64,000 nt of DNA. It comes from Liolophura sinensis. Its lineage: Eukaryota; Mollusca; Polyplacophora; Chitonida; Chitonidae. Below, in pieces: positions 9,001 to 34,200 of this stretch (positions within the stretch are counted from its first letter, which is position 1; every line of letters starts with the position of its first letter). The notes beneath the pieces are model-generated. The model ran no database searches. It had not been told where the DNA came from and saw only the letters and a program-made list of their open reading frames with translations. Location of the stretch: contig NC_088295.1 in NCBI RefSeq assembly GCF_032854445.1, positions 43,759,385 through 43,823,384 of the forward strand. The letters run 5' to 3'. Made by a program: the position numbers and the translations under genes.

Positions 9001-12000
9001 CTGTTTTGTAGGTAATCAAGCGACCTTCAAATGTGATAGAACTTCAGATGAAGAAGGAAGGGTTCCGTTCGCAACCAGGACAGTATGTTTTCCTGAAATG
9101 TCCGCAGATATCCTGGCTGGAGTGGCATCCATTTACTCTGACTTCAGTATGTATAAATAACTTAAACTTAAATAAGCACAGATATTTATTGTTTGAATTT
9201 TGGACTGATCCATTAATGTGTGGGTTGAATTAATACATTTATTAAATTGCTTCAAGTGTCACGCTGGGGCCTCTATGGCCATGGGTGTTAGCATGCCGGC
9301 ATGGCGAGAAGACCCAGGAGCCTCTCACCAGTGTGGTTGCTGTGAGTTCAAGTCCACCTCTTGCTGGTTTCCTTTCCGGTCGCCATTTTATAAGTGAAAT
9401 ATTCTTGAGTACAGCATAAAACACCAATCAAAATAAATTAATAAATAAATCAACTGTTAGGCTCTTGACCAGTGAGACCACAAAGTGGAATCCAGCTGAC
9501 AGAGGGTTTGTCAGGTACATGTAAAGGGCAGAGAGCGGTGCTTTATATGGGGCACTCTGGTTTACTCCACCCATAAAGCCATCATCTAAATGAGTATGGC
9601 ACTGAACACCAATCCTATAGATAAATTTGGAAATTATGTTGTTAAAGTTGTGGTGGAAGACAGTAAATTCATGCCCTCTTGAGATATATGAATTCGATTC
9701 AACCTAAAAACCTTGTTGTAAGTACAGCATGAAAGCAAGTCTATTAGTTATTTGTCTGCTTATCACTGGGACACTTGAGGTGCGAGAACAATCCCTGCCT
9801 TAACTGGGGAATTTACGGGGATTCCCCCATATTCATTGGGCATTGATAACAGTAAGCTGTCAATGACACTGGTGTGGCTGTTCGCATAGTCTAACATTTG
9901 TTGAAGACCATTTAATCCTGGGCATGTTGGCTTCCCCTCCAGCCGTACTTGGGAAGGTCTGACAGCACCGTGGGTTTCCCCCGAGCTCTTCCCAGTTTCC
10001 CGCCATCATAATGCTGGTTGCGGGCGTATAAGTGAAATATTCTTGAGTATGGCGTAAAACACCAATCAGATAAATAAATAAATAAATAAAAATAATCCTG
10101 GGCACTTTGATTTGGAATGGCATGTCGATTTACCTTCAGAAAAATGTTGTTTAATATTAAATACATATTTGTAAATTTTAATTATTAATATATTAATACA
10201 TTACATTGAAATATATTACAATGCAGTGTTTTATTTAGGTGACTACTATTCATGATTAATATCTTGTAATTTGCTGTATTTCCCTATAGTCTCCAGATGA
10301 GGATCATGTGACAGTCCACATCCGCTGTGCGGGGGACTGGACCAGGGCTCTGGCTACTGCATGTACTGAAGGGGTTGGGGACGGAGTGCAACAAGCATCC
10401 AAACTACCCAGGTACTAGTTACTACATGTGGGAAATGGCGGGTTGTGGGCAGATATACTGTATTTCACCAAAAGCTCAACCTGAAATAATGCTGTTTTAG
10501 AACTTTTTTTTTAATTTTGATGCCAGCATTTAAGCTTTTTTAAATGCTTAATCAAACTTAAATCAGTCAGAATGTTGAAAGAAAAGAAAACTTGGCTCAG
10601 TGTGACTGTCATCCCATTGACGAGTTAGCTCACATGCTCAAATGACAATTGCGGTTTTAATTCAAGTTTGTCACATACCAGTAACTGGCAAAGGTGGGCT
10701 GGTCAAGGTGGGCCAGTCAGTTTCCTCCACCTGCAACTCTCACCATTATCCTTTATGTCAACAATTTATGATTAAGGCTTTGAACACCAATGCAATGAAT
10801 AAATAAAATAAATATAACAGCAACTCCACTTTGTATGAAGAAAATTCTTGTTTACATCTACATCACAGATGTTGACGAAAGTCTGTTTATAGATCTCCAA
10901 AATATATACACTGTATTCTACATACACAGATGTCATATTGAAGCATATTCTGAAGGCATTGTTCTGTGTAGACTGAATAAATTAAACTTTTTGTGAAGCC
11001 CTGAAACTGCCCAATCCAACCAGTTTTGTCTCCAAAATCAAATTAAAATGTGTTTAAATTGCCCTGAAAGTTACTCTTTCACATGCAGAAAGGTTGAGGA
11101 ATTAGGGTAAATGTGTATTTCCTGAATAAACTTAGAGAGGTAGTGTGTCATCTGTGCATATAGGCATGTAGCCCAATCTTTACTTTCAGTGCTTTCAAAA
11201 AGAATGTTTGGGACAAAGTATTATGAGCACATTATTTTCTTTTGCCTTGCAGTATTGCTATTGATGGGCCTTTTGGAACAGCCGCTGAGGTGAGATTTTT
11301 TTTTTTTTTTAAAGAAATTTAAAATTTTCCATTCAAACCTGAGACTGCTGTTCATAAAAATGAAGCATGTTTTATTTAAAGTACTTACTTTTGGGGATTA
11401 TGTTCTTAGGTTTGTGTCATTCTGATAAAGAAAAGTTTACATTTGCAGTTGTTTATCCAAAGAATCCAAGTTGTCCTATCTATCTAAAAAAATGACTTTT
11501 ATTCTGTGACTATATCTCAAGTTACCTGGACTAGTGTGTATGTGAAAGTAACTACATCTGGTGGACGTGCTTATTATTGGTCTTGTAGTAGGTTGATCCA
11601 TTTACGACTCTGTATTTTCCGCTGAATGAGACAACCAGTACGTTTGTCATGATTCTCATGTATAATATTCAAAAAGGCTAGCTTTGATTGTTTCTATCAG
11701 TTGGTTTACCAGTATTTGTATCATCAGATTTTTAACGTGTGGCAGAATTAAACAAAATTGCTGCTTTCTATGTGGCAGTGAACATTTTACTTTTCATTTT
11801 CTTGACTCTTGTGCTCATAATACTTTGTCTCTGTATTCCAGGATATATTCCGTTATCAGGTGGATGTGATGGTGGCAGCAGGTATTGGGGTCACGCCTTT
11901 TGCCTCAGTCCTGAAACATATCTGGTAAGCATTCTGCAGGGAAAAAGCTGTTACTGATGAATGCTAGTAATCTTTTGAGGTAGGGATTGTGCTCTGATGG

Positions 12001-15000
12001 CACAACAATGGATAGGAAGCCTTACACAATTATTAAAGCAACCTGAGGATGGTCGTGGGTTTTCGCCAGGCTCTGCCCGTGAAAAGTGAAATATTCTTGA
12101 GTATGGCATAAAACACCAATCAAGTAAATAAATGAATCAGTATTTGAAGAACATTATGATTTGTCATCGCAAGAGTACAGTACATTTTTACAGTAGCTGT
12201 GGAGAGCAGGCAGATCTTGATATTCCAATCTTCAGCTTGCAGCAGTTGTTTTATTGTACTATTTATGTGATTGGTGTTTTACGCCATACTCAAGAACATT
12301 TCACTTATACGATGCTGGCACTTCAAATCACAGCGGCCACATTGATGAGTGGCTCCTGGGTCATTGTGCCACACTGGCATGTAAACTACCTCAGCCATAA
12401 ATGTTCACGTTTTAGAGTGCTATATAATGGTCGTTTTACAGAAGAAATCGTTGGGTGCAACATTGCAAATTTCTGAACCCAATGTGGTGGGATAATTTTG
12501 TCATGTTGTGTTATTTTGTTGTAAATTCAGGTACAAATATTGTGATCCATCCCATGAGATGAAGCTGAGGAAGGTGTATTTCTACTGGATCTGTCCGGAC
12601 CCCATGGCATTTGAGTGGATACAGGATCTCCTGCAGTCACTGGAGGTGCAGATGGCAGAACAGGGGAAGACTGGCTTCCTTATCTACAACATCTACCTGA
12701 CCAGAGGCTGGGACAAGGACCAGGTAAGGATCAGAGCAAGGTGTAGTGCTTCCTTATCTACAACATCTACCTGACCAGAGGCTGGGACAAGGACCAGGTA
12801 AGGATCAAAGCAAGGTTTAATGCTTCCTTATCTACAACATGTACCTGACCAGAGGCTGGGACAAGGACCAGGTAAGGATCAAAGCAAGGTGTAATGCTTC
12901 CTTATCTACAACATCTACCTGACCAGAGGCTGGGACAAGGACCAGGTAAGGATCAAAGCAAGGTGTAGTGCTTCCTTATCTACAACATGTACATGACCAG
13001 AGGCTGGGACAAGGACCAGGTAAGGATCAGAGCAAGGTGTAGTGCTTCCTTATCTACAACATCTACCTGACCAGAGGCTGGGACAAGGACCAGGTAAGGA
13101 TCAAAGCAAGGTTTAATGCTTCCTTATCTACAACATGTACCTGACCAGAGGCTGGGACAAGGACCAGGTAAGGATCAAAGCAAGGTGTAGTGCTTCCTTA
13201 TCTACAACATGTACATGACCAGAGGCTGGGACAAGGACCGGGTAAGGATCAGAGCAAGGTGTAATGCTTTCTTATCTACAATATCTATCTGACCAGAGGC
13301 TGGGACAAGGACCAGGTAAGGATCAAAGCAAGGTGTAGTGCTTCCTTATCTACAACATCTATCTGACCAGAGGCTGGGACAAGGAAAAGGTAAGGATCAA
13401 AGCGAGGTGTAGTGCTTCCTTATCTACAAAATCTATCTGACCAGAGGCTGGGACAAGGACCAGGTAAGGATCAGAGCAAGGTGTAATGCTTCCTTATCTA
13501 CAACATCTATCTGACCAGAGGCTGGGACAAGGACCAGGTAAGGATCAAAGCAAGGTGTAGTGCTTCCTTATCTACAACATCTATCTGACCAGAGGCTGGG
13601 ACAAGGACCAGGTAAGGGTCAAAGCAAGGTGTAATGCTTCCTTATCTACAACATCTACCTGACCAGGGGCTGGGACAAGGACCAGGTAAGGATCAAAGCA
13701 AGGTGTAATGCTTCCTTATCTACAACATCTACCTGACCAGAGGCTGGGACAAGGACCAGGTAAGGATCAAAGCAAGGTGTAATGCTTCCTTATCTACAAC
13801 ATGTACATGAACAAAGGGTGGGACAAGGACCAGGTAAGGATCAGAGCAAGGTGTAATGCTTCCTTATCTACAACATCTACCTGACCAGAGGCTGGGACAA
13901 GGACCAGGTAAGGATCAGAGCAAGGTGTAATGCTTCCTTATCTACAACATGTACCTGACCAGAGGCTGGGACAAGGACCAGGTAAGGGTCAAAGCAAGGT
14001 GTAATGCTTCCTTATCTACAACATGTACCTGACCAGAGGCTGGGACAAGGACCAGGTAAGGATCAGAGCAAGGTTTAATGCTTCCTTATCTACAACATCT
14101 ACGTGACCAGAGGCTGGGACAAGGACCAGGTAAGGATCAAAGCAAGATTTAATGCTTCCTTATCTTCAACATGTACCTGCCCAGAGATTGGAACAAGGAC
14201 CAGGTAAGGGCCATAACGTGGGATAATGCATCTGTATGACCAGAAGCTGGAACAAAGACCAGATAAAGGCCAAAACACTTCCTTATCTCCAACATTTACC
14301 TGACCAAAGGCTGGAGCAAGAACTAGGAAGGGCCAAAGCAGGGTGTAACACTTCCTTATGAAGTCCAAATAAGACATATTCATCCATTCAAAGGAAAATG
14401 CTAAGTTATGTGTGCACAAAGATTGATTTAGATTTCATAGTTCATATTAATGAAGATTTCCTTGTGCGTTGCATGATTTTGAATAAGGTCTATAAACTAT
14501 GATCCATGTGTACTTGTGCGCATATAGCTTAACATCGTGTTCTTCCCTGAATAGATGAATAAATTTACACTGCACACATTTGAAGACAACTCTCCATGTT
14601 AAGTTGTAAAGCAGGAGATGAGGAAGATATGAAAATGGATGTGAAAAATAAGAGGGCTTATTTAACATGTAGTGGACATTTACAAGTGACGTGACACAGT
14701 TATAATTTTCTAAACTCTGACACCTGTGCCTTTGCTTCTGTTTGTCCAGGCTGCACATGTAGCACTCAGGCATGAGGAGGAACATGATCCTATCACAGGG
14801 CTTCAACAGAAAACTTACTTCGGGCGCCCAAACTGGGATCAGGTGTTTGCGTCATTAGCACAAGAGCACACTGGGTAAGAACGAAACTTTTTTGTGACAC
14901 GTTCCACACCAAAAATCTCAAACTTCAGTTGTAGATTTAAAACATTTAATTTCCAGGAAATATTCATTTATTGAATCACATTCTCATGTTGTTTGATTCT

Positions 15001-15369
15001 AGCAATAACTGCTCATTTGTACACAACACTATCAAACAAAATCAAAGCGTCTTTCCAAAAAAAAACTGAATAGTGGTTTACAATCAATTCATCTTGTGCA
15101 GGACAATCTACAAATTATACAAGATTTGGTTTTTGGATTGCCTGACAAAAATAAAAAAGAAACCCCAGAGAATTACTGTTGTGGGTTTGTGGCCCATGAT
15201 TATAAATTGCTCAAAGGTCACCATATTTTTTTACAGGACCAGTGTTGGAGTATTTTTCTGTGGCCCTAAAGTCCTGTCTAACACCTTACACACCATGTGT
15301 AACAAGTATTCATCTGCGGATCCCACAGGGGCGGCCACGCGCTTCTTTTACAACAAGGAAAACTTCTGA
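78..15369 (+). CDS. NOX2-like (CYBB family): NOX2-type NADPH oxidase (5' partial, 15 exons)
   Basis: Flavocytochrome that passes electrons from NADPH through FAD and two haems across the membrane to oxygen, giving superoxide. Exons read from frame, homology and GT-AG sites: 78-173, 1673-1783, 2533-2617, 3095-3267, 6235-6335, 6767-6847, 7695-7797, 8210-8302, 9012-9146, 10290-10411, 11253-11289, 11842-11924, 12531-12723, 14750-14874, 15237-15369. All phases close, giving 556 residues and a stop at 15367. Visible landmarks: the haem histidines of TM3 (TFHK plus a second His 14 residues on) and TM5 (THHLFVIFF plus LHG); the FAD motif HPFTLTS; the NADPH motifs GIGVTPFAS and FFCGP; and the NOX2-like C-terminus FFYNKENF. 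The extracellular loop carries likely N-glycosylation sites (NNT, NET). No EF-hands are seen in the window, so it is not NOX5-like. Only the short first coding exon (about 16 residues in the human protein) should lie upstream. Intron sizes are 37 to about 3000 bp. The assignment to the NOX1-4/NOX2 clade is firm; exact orthology is inferred. Confidence 0.93.
1319..1513. repeat. Dispersed repeat family D, copy 1 (NOX intron)
   Basis: About 190 bp sharing long near-identical blocks with 10931-11110 and 39493-39693, for example 'gcatattctgaaggcatt', a central block ending in 'aatccaacca', and a 3' block 'ctctttc.catgc'. It has no tRNA-like head, no ORF and no obvious terminal repeats. I do not recognise the family. 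Confidence 0.75.
2161..2247. repeat. Three perfect 29-bp tandem units
   Basis: Three identical head-to-tail copies of a 29-bp unit beginning tgatactgatgatatccta lie in the second NOX intron of the window. Identity between copies suggests a recent expansion. Confidence 0.95.
3385..3524 (+). mobile_element. SINE family A, 5'-truncated copy
   Basis: Contains the conserved core 'ggatggtcgtgggtttcccc', the block 'ccaccataatgctggctgct', the tail motif 'gtaagtgaaatattcttcag' and a terminal (aaat)n. The tRNA-derived head is missing. It lies in a NOX intron. Confidence 0.85.
3774..4022. repeat. 39-bp minisatellite
   Basis: About six imperfect units built on 'gggtgatctgtagcagaata' plus a segment ending 'ggggattggtgtgctgat'. 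One interval carries an extra partial unit. Because 39 is divisible by three, the minus strand stays open and gives a spurious repetitive reading frame (3588-4043). It lies in a NOX intron. Confidence 0.9.
5083..5150 (+). mobile_element. SINE family A, tail fragment
   Basis: A diverged fragment with 'cccaccataatgctggtcgt' and a decayed 'tgagtgcaatgttcttgagt' tail block. It lies in a NOX intron. Confidence 0.65.
7331..7590 (+). mobile_element. SINE family A, near full length
   Basis: It begins with a tRNA-like head ('tggcctggtggttagtg' as A box, 'tgagttcaagtgcg' as B box region). The family core, 'gccataatgctggctgccgt', the 'ataagtgaaatattcttgag' motif and an (aaat)n tail follow. It lies in a NOX intron about 100 bp upstream of exon 7695-7797. 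Confidence 0.88.
7846..7888 (-). mobile_element. SINE family A, tail fragment (inverted)
   Basis: The reverse complement shows the family tail: the 'attcttgagtatggcgtaaa' block followed by an A/T-rich end. It is the only part of the element present. Confidence 0.6.
9266..9450 (+). mobile_element. SINE family A, internally deleted copy
   Basis: The tRNA-like head ('gcctctatggccatgggtgtta', with B box 'gagttcaagtcc') is joined directly to 'ccattttataagtgaaatat' and the tail, so the central core is deleted. It lies in the NOX intron after exon 9012-9146. Confidence 0.85.
9460..9640 (+). mobile_element. SINE-like element, 'cccataaa' tail type (family E)
   Basis: Shares 'ggggcactctggtttactcc' and 'acccataaagccatcatcta' with related elements at 41303-41709 and 62005-62290, and ends in an A-rich stretch. 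The head is poorly preserved. Confidence 0.5.
9925..10092 (+). mobile_element. SINE family A, 5'-truncated, with 12-bp target duplication
   Basis: The core and tail of family A are flanked by perfect direct repeats 'taatcctgggca' at 9913-9924 and 10093-10104. These mark the exact insertion boundaries and show that the copy inserted already truncated at its 5' end, as expected for target-primed reverse transcription. Confidence 0.92.
10931..11110. repeat. Dispersed repeat family D, copy 2 (NOX intron)
   Basis: Matches 1319-1513 and 39493-39693 along most of its length, including 'agcatattctgaaggcattg', 'tttttgtgaagccctgaaac' and 'aaaggttgaggaattagggt'. Confidence 0.75.
12045..12134 (+). mobile_element. 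SINE family A, fragment
   Basis: A core fragment 'ggatggtcgtgggttttcgc' is joined by a deletion to 'aaaagtgaaatattcttgag' and the (aaat)n tail. It lies in the NOX intron after exon 11842-11924. Confidence 0.8.
12260..12371 (-). mobile_element. SINE family A, rearranged inverted copy
   Basis: The reverse complement carries the tail block ('aatgttcttgagtatggcgt') and then the tRNA-like head region ('gacccaggagccactcat'). The core between them is missing. It lies 125 bp downstream of the previous plus-strand fragment. Confidence 0.7.
12674..14227 (+). repeat. 74-bp tandem array carrying the NOX exon end and its splice donor (21 units)
   Basis: Unit starts ('gcttccttatctacaacat') recur at 12674, 12748, 12822 and so on to 14154. 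That is exactly 20 steps of 74 bp without indels, so 21 units. Each unit holds the 3'-terminal 50 bp of exon 12531-12723 (coding [15 protein letters not shown]), the donor 'caggtaagg' and about 24 bp of intron. The first unit is the real exon end; the other 20 are intronic. Degenerate remnants continue to about 14357. Splicing from the second donor would add 74 nt and hit a stop at 12772-12774, so only the first donor gives the family-conserved protein. Base variants (atca/g, gta/gtg, atc/atg) recur in blocks, suggesting multi-unit duplications. Confidence 0.97.
14228..14357 (+). repeat. Decayed edge of the 74-bp array
   Basis: Diverged, partly deleted versions of the unit ('gaccagaagctggaacaaag', 'gaccaaaggctggagcaaga', 'aacacttccttatg') follow the regular array before the unique intron resumes. 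Decayed edges with homogeneous interior units are typical of arrays kept similar by unequal exchange. Confidence 0.8.
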
Positions 15370-20132: not shown

Positions 20133-20397
20133 AGAGGTCTCCGTAGCTCAGTTGGTTAGCGTGCTAGCACAGCATGATGACCCAGGAGCCTCTCACCAAT
20201 GCGGTTGCCGTGAGCTCAAGTCCAACTCATGCTGGCTTCGTCTCCGGCTGTATGTGGGAAGGTGTGGCAGCCACCTGTGGATGGTCAGGGGGTTATTCCG
20301 GGGCTCTGCCCAGTTTTCTTCCATCATAATGCTGGCCACCGTCATATAAGTGAAATTTTCTTGAGTGTGGCGTAAAACACCAATCAAATAAATAAAG
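20133..20397 (+). mobile_element. SINE family A, full length
   Basis: Complete layout: a tRNA-derived head ('ggtctccgtagctcagttgg' with an A box, and B-box region 'gagctcaagtcc'), core, 'ccatcataatgctggccacc', tail motif and (aaat)n. It is flanked by short direct repeats 'ttgcagtc' at 20125-20132 and 20398-20405, the likely target duplication. Confidence 0.92.
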
Positions 20398-20544
20398 TTG
20401 CAGTCTAGGCATGAAAAGTACCATCAGTGATGTGTTCTTTATGTTGTACATGCAGGTATAAATACATTTACAACATAACCCTCACTGCGACAGATAACAC
20501 TAAGAACAATTGTGTGACAAAATAAAACTTACCGAAACAAAAGA

Positions 20545-20866: not shown

Positions 20867-21316
20867 TCAGGTTTTACTGGTAGACTGCTTAGCTTCCTTC
20901 TGAGCCAGTTGCTTTTGTCTCCTCTCTATTTTCTTTTGGGCAGCTGCAACTCTCAGATCATGTTCTTTCTTCAGCTGTTCCATGGCTCGTTTTTCACGGT
21001 TACAGTTATACTCTATCGTCCGCCTGATGTTGATATGGTCTGGTATATGGATATATCTTACGTTAGATCCGTGAACAAAAAAGTCTGAGAATCTCATACA
21101 TCTGCCATCTGGCATTTTCAATGTCACATTTCTCATTGTCACACACATGAAGGCATCAACATGTTCCACTCTGCCTGTGACAGCATTCTCATTTCTCAAT
21201 TCCACAGTGGTCACTGTGTCATGTAAGCCCTGGAGAAGACAGATAAGACTTTGCTTTGACAAAGCCTTTTCTCTTGGGGCAATGATGGGCCTGTATACTG
21301 TGTCAGACTGGGACAT
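20867..21316 (-). CDS. LSM10: LSM10, U7 snRNP Sm-like protein
   Basis: Intact single-exon frame of 149 residues. In animals LSM10 and LSM11 replace SmD1 and SmD2 in the Sm ring of the U7 snRNP, which cleaves replication-dependent histone pre-mRNAs in the nucleus. The Sm fold is visible: Sm1 around residues 20-60 (LICLLQGLHDTVTTVELRNE, VDAFM) and Sm2 around 80-92 (FVHGSNVRYIHIP). The RYIHIPD stretch closely follows vertebrate LSM10 and differs from SmD1. Residues about 105-149 form a K/R/E/Q/A-rich tail, predicted helical, longer than in the human protein (123 aa total). The ATG at 21316 is preceded by a good acceptor ('cattttccttccag', ending at 21332), so the exon starts at 21331 with 15 nt of 5' UTR and a non-coding first exon lies upstream. 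It is convergent with NOX and divergent from FANCG. Confidence 0.92.
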   Translation of the reverse strand: MSQSDTVYRPIIAPREKALSKQSLICLLQGLHDTVTTVELRNENAVTGRVEHVDAFMCVTMRNVTLKMPDGRCMRFSDFFVHGSNVRYIHIPDHINIRRTIEYNCNREKRAMEQLKKEHDLRVAAAQKKIERRQKQLAQKEAKQSTSKT

Positions 21317-31259: not shown

Positions 31260-34200
31260 TTCTAGCCAGAGGGAGTTAAAATATGATGTTTATTAAATCG
31301 TAGCGTATTATCAACTCACTAGTTGTGTTGTTTTGTATTGTTTTAGACACTAGAGAACAGCTCAGGAACTCCCGCCCCATGTGATGTGACTTTGGATCAG
31401 CAGGTATCGTCAGCAGTCATCAGACTGTTAGATCTGCCCTATACTGTCAGTGTGGTACAGGTACAGTACTTGCTGGCTGTCAGGTGCCTAGAACTACACA
31501 GGTCAGAATGATTTACACAATACATGCACTGATATTCTACAGCCTTGCTGAGGCTTCTATATTTCTATATCTAGTACTTTATTTTATATCTAGGTCTCTT
31601 AGTCAGAGTTTGTTTTATCTAAAGATGTAATTTGACCATTGTGAACAAGATACACGTCATAAAAATTATAAAAAAAAGATTTCAGAATCATAAATACTAA
31701 ATTAAGCCCATTGTCTGATGTTGCTTTCAGTATTTACAGTGGTTCAGTTAATGTTCTATTGGAATTTTGAGCCATGCCCCTTTTTAAGGACCAATTAATG
31801 CTCCTTTGTACAGCTCAAATTAGAAACCTCTAAAACCAGTTCATGTTATAAATCTTTGATATGAAAAATCTCATGTGGATTGTTTTTTATTAAAGTCATT
31901 TAGTGGTTCAAAATCATGTTTCAAATTTTTCTACATATACTCTGGCAGATATAAGGCAGCTTACCAGAGGTACATGGACCTGATGGCTGTGATAATGAAA
32001 TCTGATGTGATACAGGTAACTGTTCAATGGGATGCACTAGTTTTTGATTTGACAAAGTGGTTCCCTGATTAAAATGGATCGCAATAGCTCCAGGTGAAGT
32101 TAGTAACTGCAGCATCATACTACAGACATTGTGTGACTTACAATAGCTTGAAACTGTTTTTACGCAAAATTCATCAAAAACTTCTTTAATGTCAGATCAC
32201 GTAATCAGGCAATTTCACTTCAAACCTCTCAGTGTTGTCGCTGGCTTCCCCTCCAGCCATACATGGGAAGATCTGTCAGCAAGCTGTGGGAGGTCATCAG
32301 TTTCCCCTGGGCTGGGTCAGGTTTCCTCCCACCATAATGCTGGCCGCCGTCGATGAAATGTTCTTGAGCCTGGCGTGAAACACCAATCAATTAATTAAAT
32401 AAATAAATAAATCTCAGAGTTGCCTTCACTGTACAGCAATGAGCAGTGCATGCATTTGAATTCATTTTGAAAATGATGTATTGTGGGGTGCAAAGAGTAC
32501 AGATATTGTGTTCTTTGTGATATTATAGAAAGGATACTTTAACATCTCCCACCTAGCCAAATCCATGTATATTACATAGTTCATGTGATTATTCTTACGT
32601 TCATGAAACCTTTGAGAGCTTCTTAAACTATTACATCCCAACAGTGTTTGAATGTAAGAAGTCGTGAATTATTTGAAACACATGAATTTACTTGTTAATT
32701 ATTCAGTTTAAAGAAAAAAGAAAAAAAAAGGAGGTCAGTGGCTTGAATTTTTCTTTGTTGATGTTGCAGTGTGACGGAAAGTTGATCAAAATACCTAGAT
32801 TACATCAGATTTTCCTGGAGACCATCCAGTCCAGCCTGAAGTGTAAGAAACTAGAGGAGTGTGTGACCCTCTGTGACCAGGCCTTGCTGTCTGGGCCAGT
32901 GGGTGTCACTTCTGAATGTATACCTCCTGCTGCTGATCCATACACCACCTTAACTGATCACACAGGTAGAATTTCTTCTTTCCTTCCCTGACCAACATAC
33001 CAAAAGGTCATTGTCAGTGCAGCCTATTTTCTTGACCATGAGATCTTCTCACTGGATTGTCAGCTACATTGTGTAACTGACGATTGGTGGTTTACCTCAG
33101 GCACACCGGTTTACCTTGGTCATGCTGTTGTAATCTTGGGCACACTGGTTTACCTTAGGCACGCTGTTATGATCTTGGGCACACTGGTTTACCTTGGGCA
33201 CACTGGTTTACCTTGGGCACGCTGTTTTGATCTTGGGGACAATGGTTTACCTTGGGCATGCTGCTTTGATCTCAGGCACGTAGGTTTACCTCTGGCACAC
33301 TGGTTTACCTTGGGCATGCTGTTTTGATCTTGGGCACACTGGTTTACCTTGGGCATGCTGTTTTGATCTCAGGCACGTAGGTTTACCTCTGGCACACTGG
33401 TTTCCTCCACCCATATTTTTTGTATACAGAGTTAAAACACCAATGAAATAAAGTAAATTCATTTTATATATATAGTATGATGCGATTTATTGAAAGAAGT
33501 CATTCAGGGAAAAGGAAAATAATGTAAATAAATGTATGGCTCTATTGCATTACTATTAAAGGTTTTCAGCAAAATTTAATGCCAATAAAACCATTCATTT
33601 CTGATTTCAAACTGTCATGTACTAAATACCCTGTATGAAAAGGTTTGACAATTCCTATGGCACAATACTGGACAAGAATGCTTTTGTTGAAGAGGGTTGT
33701 ATGTAGTCTAAAGACCTTAGTCTGTTGTCAAGGGTGGCACATACAATCTTTTTCTCAGTTTCAGTGTTTAGTGTTAATGGTGTAGGAGTTCCCAACTTTA
33801 ACCAATACACCCCAAAAATTTAACTGTACAGACTTTTTTTTATCTGCAATTTTTATTTTCTAACTCAACCTTTGAATTTGGAGAGCAAAGACATTAGTAA
33901 TCATTTATATCACCAATCCTTGAACATTATTAATTAAACAAGCAAATTGTAAATTCTCAAGTGCAGTTTGAATTTGTTAAGATTACTGGCCTGTTTCCTG
34001 TAGAAACTTTTCCCTGTGACAAATTATAGCTGGCAAGCGAAAGAGGGTGGCATCCAGCCAGCAGATGTGTGAAGAAGACTCATCAGCCAATCATATTACA
34101 GCATGTCTGTTTCACAAGGCAGAGGCTCTGCAGTTACTGGGGGAGCTGCAGGAAGCTGCTCACACACTGCATAGGTATTTAACCATTCTTGATTCCTCAG

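Follow-up and report, generated by a model that had tools for sequence, protein, structure and literature searches.

The window, the whole 64,000-nucleotide stretch of DNA analysed here, contains the terminal exons of a NOX2-type gene, a Pfam FAD_binding_8 match at 9015-9158 and a tandem array that crosses the 3′ edge of one NOX exon. The features most relevant to the analysis are the following:

12531..12723, + strand: NOX2-type coding exon of 193 bp (Pfam NAD_binding_6, E 3.7e-7), with the true donor at 12723/12724
12674..14227, + strand: 74-bp array of 21 in-register units, unit 1 being the coding copy (TRF, unit table)
12772..12774, + strand: TGA met in frame from any of decoy donors 2-21 when spliced to the acceptor at 14750
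14204..14361, + strand: array tail of two decayed units with indels (limits approximate, by eye)
14750..14874, + strand: next NOX exon after the array, with acceptor TTTGTCCAG/GCTGCACAT (NOX2 alignment)
15238..15369, + strand: last NOX coding exon, ending NKENF-stop (sequence, NOX2 alignment)

An earlier note, made from the letters of this DNA, had assigned the exon at 12531-12723 to NOX, and both the Pfam match and homology support that assignment. The 149 C-terminal residues obtained by joining the three last exons match human NOX2 (cytochrome b-245 heavy chain, PDB 3a1f; E 6.7e-52) from end to end, and NOX5 and DUOX1 more poorly; the middle exon, 14750..14874, has a Pfam NAD_binding_6 match at E 5.9e-4, below the curated cut-off. 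The junction 12723/14750 falls without a gap in the human NOX2 alignment, so the first donor would be the one that makes NOX, and the NOX2 reading frame, as translated from the sequence, is compatible with that donor alone. The note had also predicted that the second donor would bring in a stop at 12772 and truncate the C-terminus of NOX. This is correct and extends to every decoy: the same TGA is reached from each of decoys 2-21, and use of any of the 20 gives an identical truncated frame in which the last 85 of the 149 aligned residues are lost.

TRF reports the array at 12674-14209 with a period of 74, 20.8 copies, 94% matches, 0% indels and a score of 2694, and the unit table places 21 units in register from 12674 to 14227, as expected from the earlier claim of 21 units without length change. 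That description of the extent is accurate for the 21 units and overlooked the two decayed units that continue to ~14361, both of which lack the donor GT and read ATAAAG and GAAGGG instead. Each unit consists, as had been claimed, of the last 50 bp of the NOX exon followed by 24 intronic bp that begin with the exact GTAAGG donor. Units 1-20 share 68-74 of their 74 positions with the consensus and unit 21 shares 60; unit 1 equals the consensus across all 50 exonic bp. The succession of a true donor and 20 near-identical decoys is likewise real, with GGTAAGG present in 21/21 units and the exact donor 9-mer CAGGTAAGG in 18 of the 20 decoys. From 12724 onward the array makes up 1638 bp of the 2026-bp intron. 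Donor positions carry 2 changes in 171 site-units and other positions 44 in 1235 (24/893 exonic and 20/342 intronic), counts that are not enough for a claim of selection and that give no clear sign of decoy donors having been kept or purged. Two suggestions of further order within the array were rejected. A higher-order period of four units, prompted by the 99% identity of units 5-7 to units 1-3, disappears under permutation (lag 4, P 0.93; best lag, P 0.53). Coding constraint on the decoys is suggested by third codon positions holding 18 of the 26 exonic differences in units 2-20, many of which are one change present in several units; per distinct variable column the hand count is 7/12, which is not taken as evidence. 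The array is genuine. Its host is the chiton Liolophura sinensis, whose assembly was published under the name L. japonica, since corrected (PMC12441733). The array is unlikely to be an assembly artefact because the HiFi reads of the published assembly, given in the accessible part of its description as having a mean length of 8,347 bp at 14x (PMC11068029), are on average longer than the array. A search with 12531-12900 of the host genome DNA (609,464,459 bases in 632 contigs) returned 10 matches, which among the best-scoring candidates lie at the NOX locus only.

Several other features were observed in the window and the assembly. On the minus strand, 33088-33403 holds a 39/97-bp array with AAG/GTAAAC, beside which no adjoining coding exon was seen, and 20867-21316 holds an LSM-domain gene (Pfam LSM, E 5.6e-9) that is LSM10-like by eye. 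Similar peptide-like stretches at 9860-10129 (−), 12221-12400 (+) and 20193-20423 (−), among others, represent a dispersed repeat in many ORF fragments. Contig C99 carries seven COX1 copies ~15.5 kb apart and is a mitochondrial concatemer in the assembly, the single-copy contig being C632. The mitochondrial contig has COX1, COX2, ATP6, COX3, ND3 and ND2 on one strand and ND5, ND4, ND4L, CYTB, ND6, ND1 and the large rRNA on the other (all named by eye), which we take to be a chiton-like mollusc order.

Arrays across exon edges recur elsewhere in this genome. An exon-first sample, chosen regardless of repeats, took exons with short matches to four families together with 400 bp of flank in either direction; the rows were hand-picked as short matches (kinase 46/135, ABC 18/19, p450 40/99, Ras 40/132), and some represent adjacent paralogues or several exons from a single gene. 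These 144 exons contain 42 arrays with a period of at least 20 (TRF), 12 of which touch the family match. Boundary-spanning arrays, accepted by eye, occur at nine exons (6.3%, exact 95% interval 2.9-11.5%), a count from which some may be missing where the end of a family match is not the exon end. By family they are found at 5/46 kinase, 0/18 ABC, 1/40 p450 and 3/40 Ras exons, and seven lie on the donor side versus two on the acceptor side (P 0.18). The nine include L137, a mere two-copy 28-bp duplication that failed the first automatic rule, yet was counted. Three further arrays were rejected: L097 begins ~12 bp within the intron, L129 sits around a stop codon and L146 stops at the acceptor and includes no exon. 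An array-first sample consisted of 20 arrays with repeated AGGTAAG (9 + 11 among the matches listed), of which 3/20 could be placed at exon ends (SORD-like, RIC1-like and TMF1-like), the piece read stopping short of the array edge for several of the large ones. The arrays are:

L054, L063, L077, L137, L147, L173, L181: donor-side boundary arrays of the exon-first sample (by eye)
L042, L044: acceptor-side boundary arrays of the exon-first sample (by eye)
L008:1446-1876 (C1 near 596,000): SORD-like donor array, 68 bp x 6.3 (ADH_zinc_N, E 4.3e-9)
L008:18-183: SORD-like acceptor array at the upstream exon, 41 bp x 4.1 (same gene by eye)
RIC1-like exon array, 35 bp x 5.9 (Pfam RIC1, E 1.8e-10)
TMF1-like exon array, 89 bp x 3.8 (putative name; no Pfam match)

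Below the level of the Pfam family, the names SORD, TMF1, GRK, Aurora, Ral, Rab, PASK, PKN and receptor tyrosine kinase are putative, assigned by reading the translations. Pattern searches of the genome found 1905 + 2391 matches to three copies of AGGTAAG at 60-90 bp, versus 1074 + 709 for the reversed motif, and 59 + 51 matches to three copies of CAGGTAAGT at 66-69 bp, versus 3 + 20. These motif counts are weak evidence of recurrence because they are driven mainly by large arrays, and words resembling a donor are frequent in genes. Because similar arrays lie in several other genes of the genome, splice-edge arrays look like a general habit of the chiton genome rather than a switch specific to NOX.

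Three other repeats were noted among the pieces read. An array of more than 10 kb extends from C1:1027538 to beyond 1037600 (L023, L084); its 68-bp unit contains AGGTAAGG and has a protein-like frame (GETLVIAIKILLYDRETVIEE), with no exon edge within the pieces read. L031 (C5 near 18,022,500-18,027,200) has 67-bp units in which an acceptor-like and a donor-like site surround ~31 bp, like a repeated tiny exon. At L025:1-902, a 54-bp x 16.7 array carries TTTTTGCAG/GTATGT, an adjoining acceptor and donor after a T-rich tract.

The arrays present the splicing machinery with a choice among nearly equal sites. The exon runs on without a break into the first copy in 11/11 donor arrays read, and the last copy holds this place in the acceptor arrays L042 and L044. 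Across the 11 donor arrays, the U1-pairing energy of 49 of the 55 GT decoys is at least as favourable as that of the true site; 11 decoys are stronger, including 5/5 in the RIC1-like and 5/5 in the GRK-like array. Strength therefore cannot explain donor choice. A stop precedes the first decoy donor in 9/11 donor arrays, and in the RIC1-like and p450 arrays the first decoy produces a frame shift. Exon definition is an established concept in which the donor nearest an exon's own acceptor is paired with it across the exon. The NOX exon is 193 nt long via the first donor, versus 267 nt and more via the decoys, and the true sites across arrays share this shortest-exon outcome, as expected under exon definition. 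Position is probably the best explanation of donor choice, and the first NOX donor is, on the predicted frame, likely to be the only one used. The L077 intron measures only ~220 bp, and intron definition might apply there.

The most probable interpretation, to which we assign a probability of about three in four, is that a minisatellite was born across the NOX exon edge, grew into the intron and has been tolerated, and that the same has happened at many exon edges. Birth would have taken place across the 3′ edge of the NOX2-type exon with subsequent growth into the intron; copy 1 would still be coding and the other copies intronic because growth ran away from the exon body. Exon definition would pair the first donor with the exon's acceptor while the remaining donors are removed with the intron, and splicing would tolerate 20 decoys because the first donor yields the shortest exon. 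An identical process of birth and tolerance would act at many exon edges of the chiton genome, at donors and acceptors alike, and the NOX array itself would be close to neutral.

Random birth plus tolerance may be nearly sufficient for the boundary arrays, with a preference for edges being possible. The array density of the 400-bp flanks predicts 3.6 boundary arrays for boundary periods (P 0.011) or 1.7 for intronic periods (P 7e-5), and that of the nearest 200 bp predicts 5.7 (P 0.12) or 2.7 (P 0.002). The nine observed, which were accepted by eye, thus represent an estimated excess of 1.6- to 5-fold, one of the four estimates being non-significant. It can be proposed tentatively that exon edges are preferred birthplaces through a process coupled to transcription or splicing. 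Arrays of CAGGTAAGT with a 66-69 bp period also point in this direction, with at least 10 versus 3 for the reversed motif among the matches listed (P 0.046), although genes are rich in donor words in any case. The bolder proposition that edges of chiton exons breed minisatellites non-randomly, that several percent of exons carry such arrays and that position alone picks the splice site is similarly a speculative one.

Intron or exon remodelling under way, with certain copies used already, or to be used later, as new exon ends or introns, is unlikely here. It has been suggested for amphioxus globin arrays in the accessible part of PMC3087553, and new introns can arise from tandem repeats of human exon-intron boundaries according to that of PMC2812944. 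In the chiton, however, no copy is known to be used, every NOX decoy would bring in a stop, and by inspection the NOX units read GGCTGGGACAAGGACCAG/GTAAGG, with a purine-rich stretch and no pyrimidine tract before AG/GT.

The earlier note had proposed that the array tunes NOX output. In such a splicing rheostat, decoys would capture U1 and some transcripts, nonsense-mediated decay would remove the products and copy number would set the NOX level. The stop common to all 20 decoys and the retention of the donor 9-mer in most of them are compatible with this idea, and exons lie downstream of the array, so that decay is possible. Nevertheless, we consider it highly improbable. Equivalent arrays occupy exon edges of unrelated genes, the low rate of donor change is insufficient for a selection claim and an early stop after the donor is the chance expectation for intron sequence. 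The regulatory idea is unproven and is made less likely by recurrence in other genes. It is hardly credible that RNA structure masks the decoys while the first donor stays accessible. Every NOX donor is able to base-pair with the beginning of the following unit, and in short folding windows only one of the 21 donors is more open than the true one. At a 300-nt window, however, the true donor ranks 10 of 21, a three-unit fold gains no stability over shuffled sequences (z −0.63), the array reduces the true donor's own openness relative to a single-copy control and the most open donor is not the true one in the SORD, RIC1 and Rab arrays; in these folding models, structure appears to be no general alternative as an explanation of donor choice.

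At about one in sixteen sampled exons of this mollusc, the arrays are natural constructs that repeat a single donor or acceptor as many as 20 times and have the true copy at the edge of the exon. With the published RNA-seq of this species they bring a long-standing question, how the spliceosome decides between equivalent sites (exon definition, proximity), within reach of a test. They are also raw material for changing exon ends and introns. If exon edges were preferred birthplaces, the genome would amount to a natural experiment on choice among equal sites, decided by position alone and not by sequence.

The closest known counterparts are the mirages of amphioxus, described in the accessible portions of PMC3087553 and PMC3902484 as minisatellite-like arrays that repeat an exon/intron boundary together with its splice site, at either the donor or the acceptor, in which many units retain splice signals and splicing is reported as undisturbed and apparently regular. 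Mirage genes include Adh3 and the globins BflGb6 and BflGb9; the BflGb6 mirage has 6 and 3 units of 150-160 bp in two haplotypes, and the Adh3 mirage, as cited there, has units of 10-72 bp and somatic instability (PMC3087553). TnC has been added as a mirage and PGBD5 likened to mirages (PMC3902484). Like mirages, the NOX array spans an exon-intron boundary, and its unit combines part of an exon, the splice site and part of an intron. Unlike mirages, which were named from cephalochordates, it is hosted by a mollusc; it has 21 units rather than the 3-6 reported for BflGb6, and chiton boundary arrays occur at several percent of sampled exons. Instability and normal splicing are reported for amphioxus, whereas the chiton arrays are known here from genome sequence alone. 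Internal tandem repeats of duplicated human genes are also minisatellites at a boundary that alter gene structure, but, as far as the available text of PMC2812944 goes, they show mostly exonic growth in recent paralogues with possible new introns, whereas the NOX array has grown intronically in a conserved gene. The dual-specific AGGT sites of polyubiquitin-type repeat genes resemble the NOX array in having AG/GT in each unit; in the accessible part of PMC10809524 those repeats are coding and their AGGT doubles as a 3′ site, whereas the NOX array is intronic after unit 1 and its unit is not a multiple of 3. Within the open-licence literature, mirages are described in amphioxus only and no molluscan or chiton boundary array was found, although earlier reports elsewhere are possible. 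The mirage-type arrangement is already known, and what is new here is its host, a mollusc, and its frequency.
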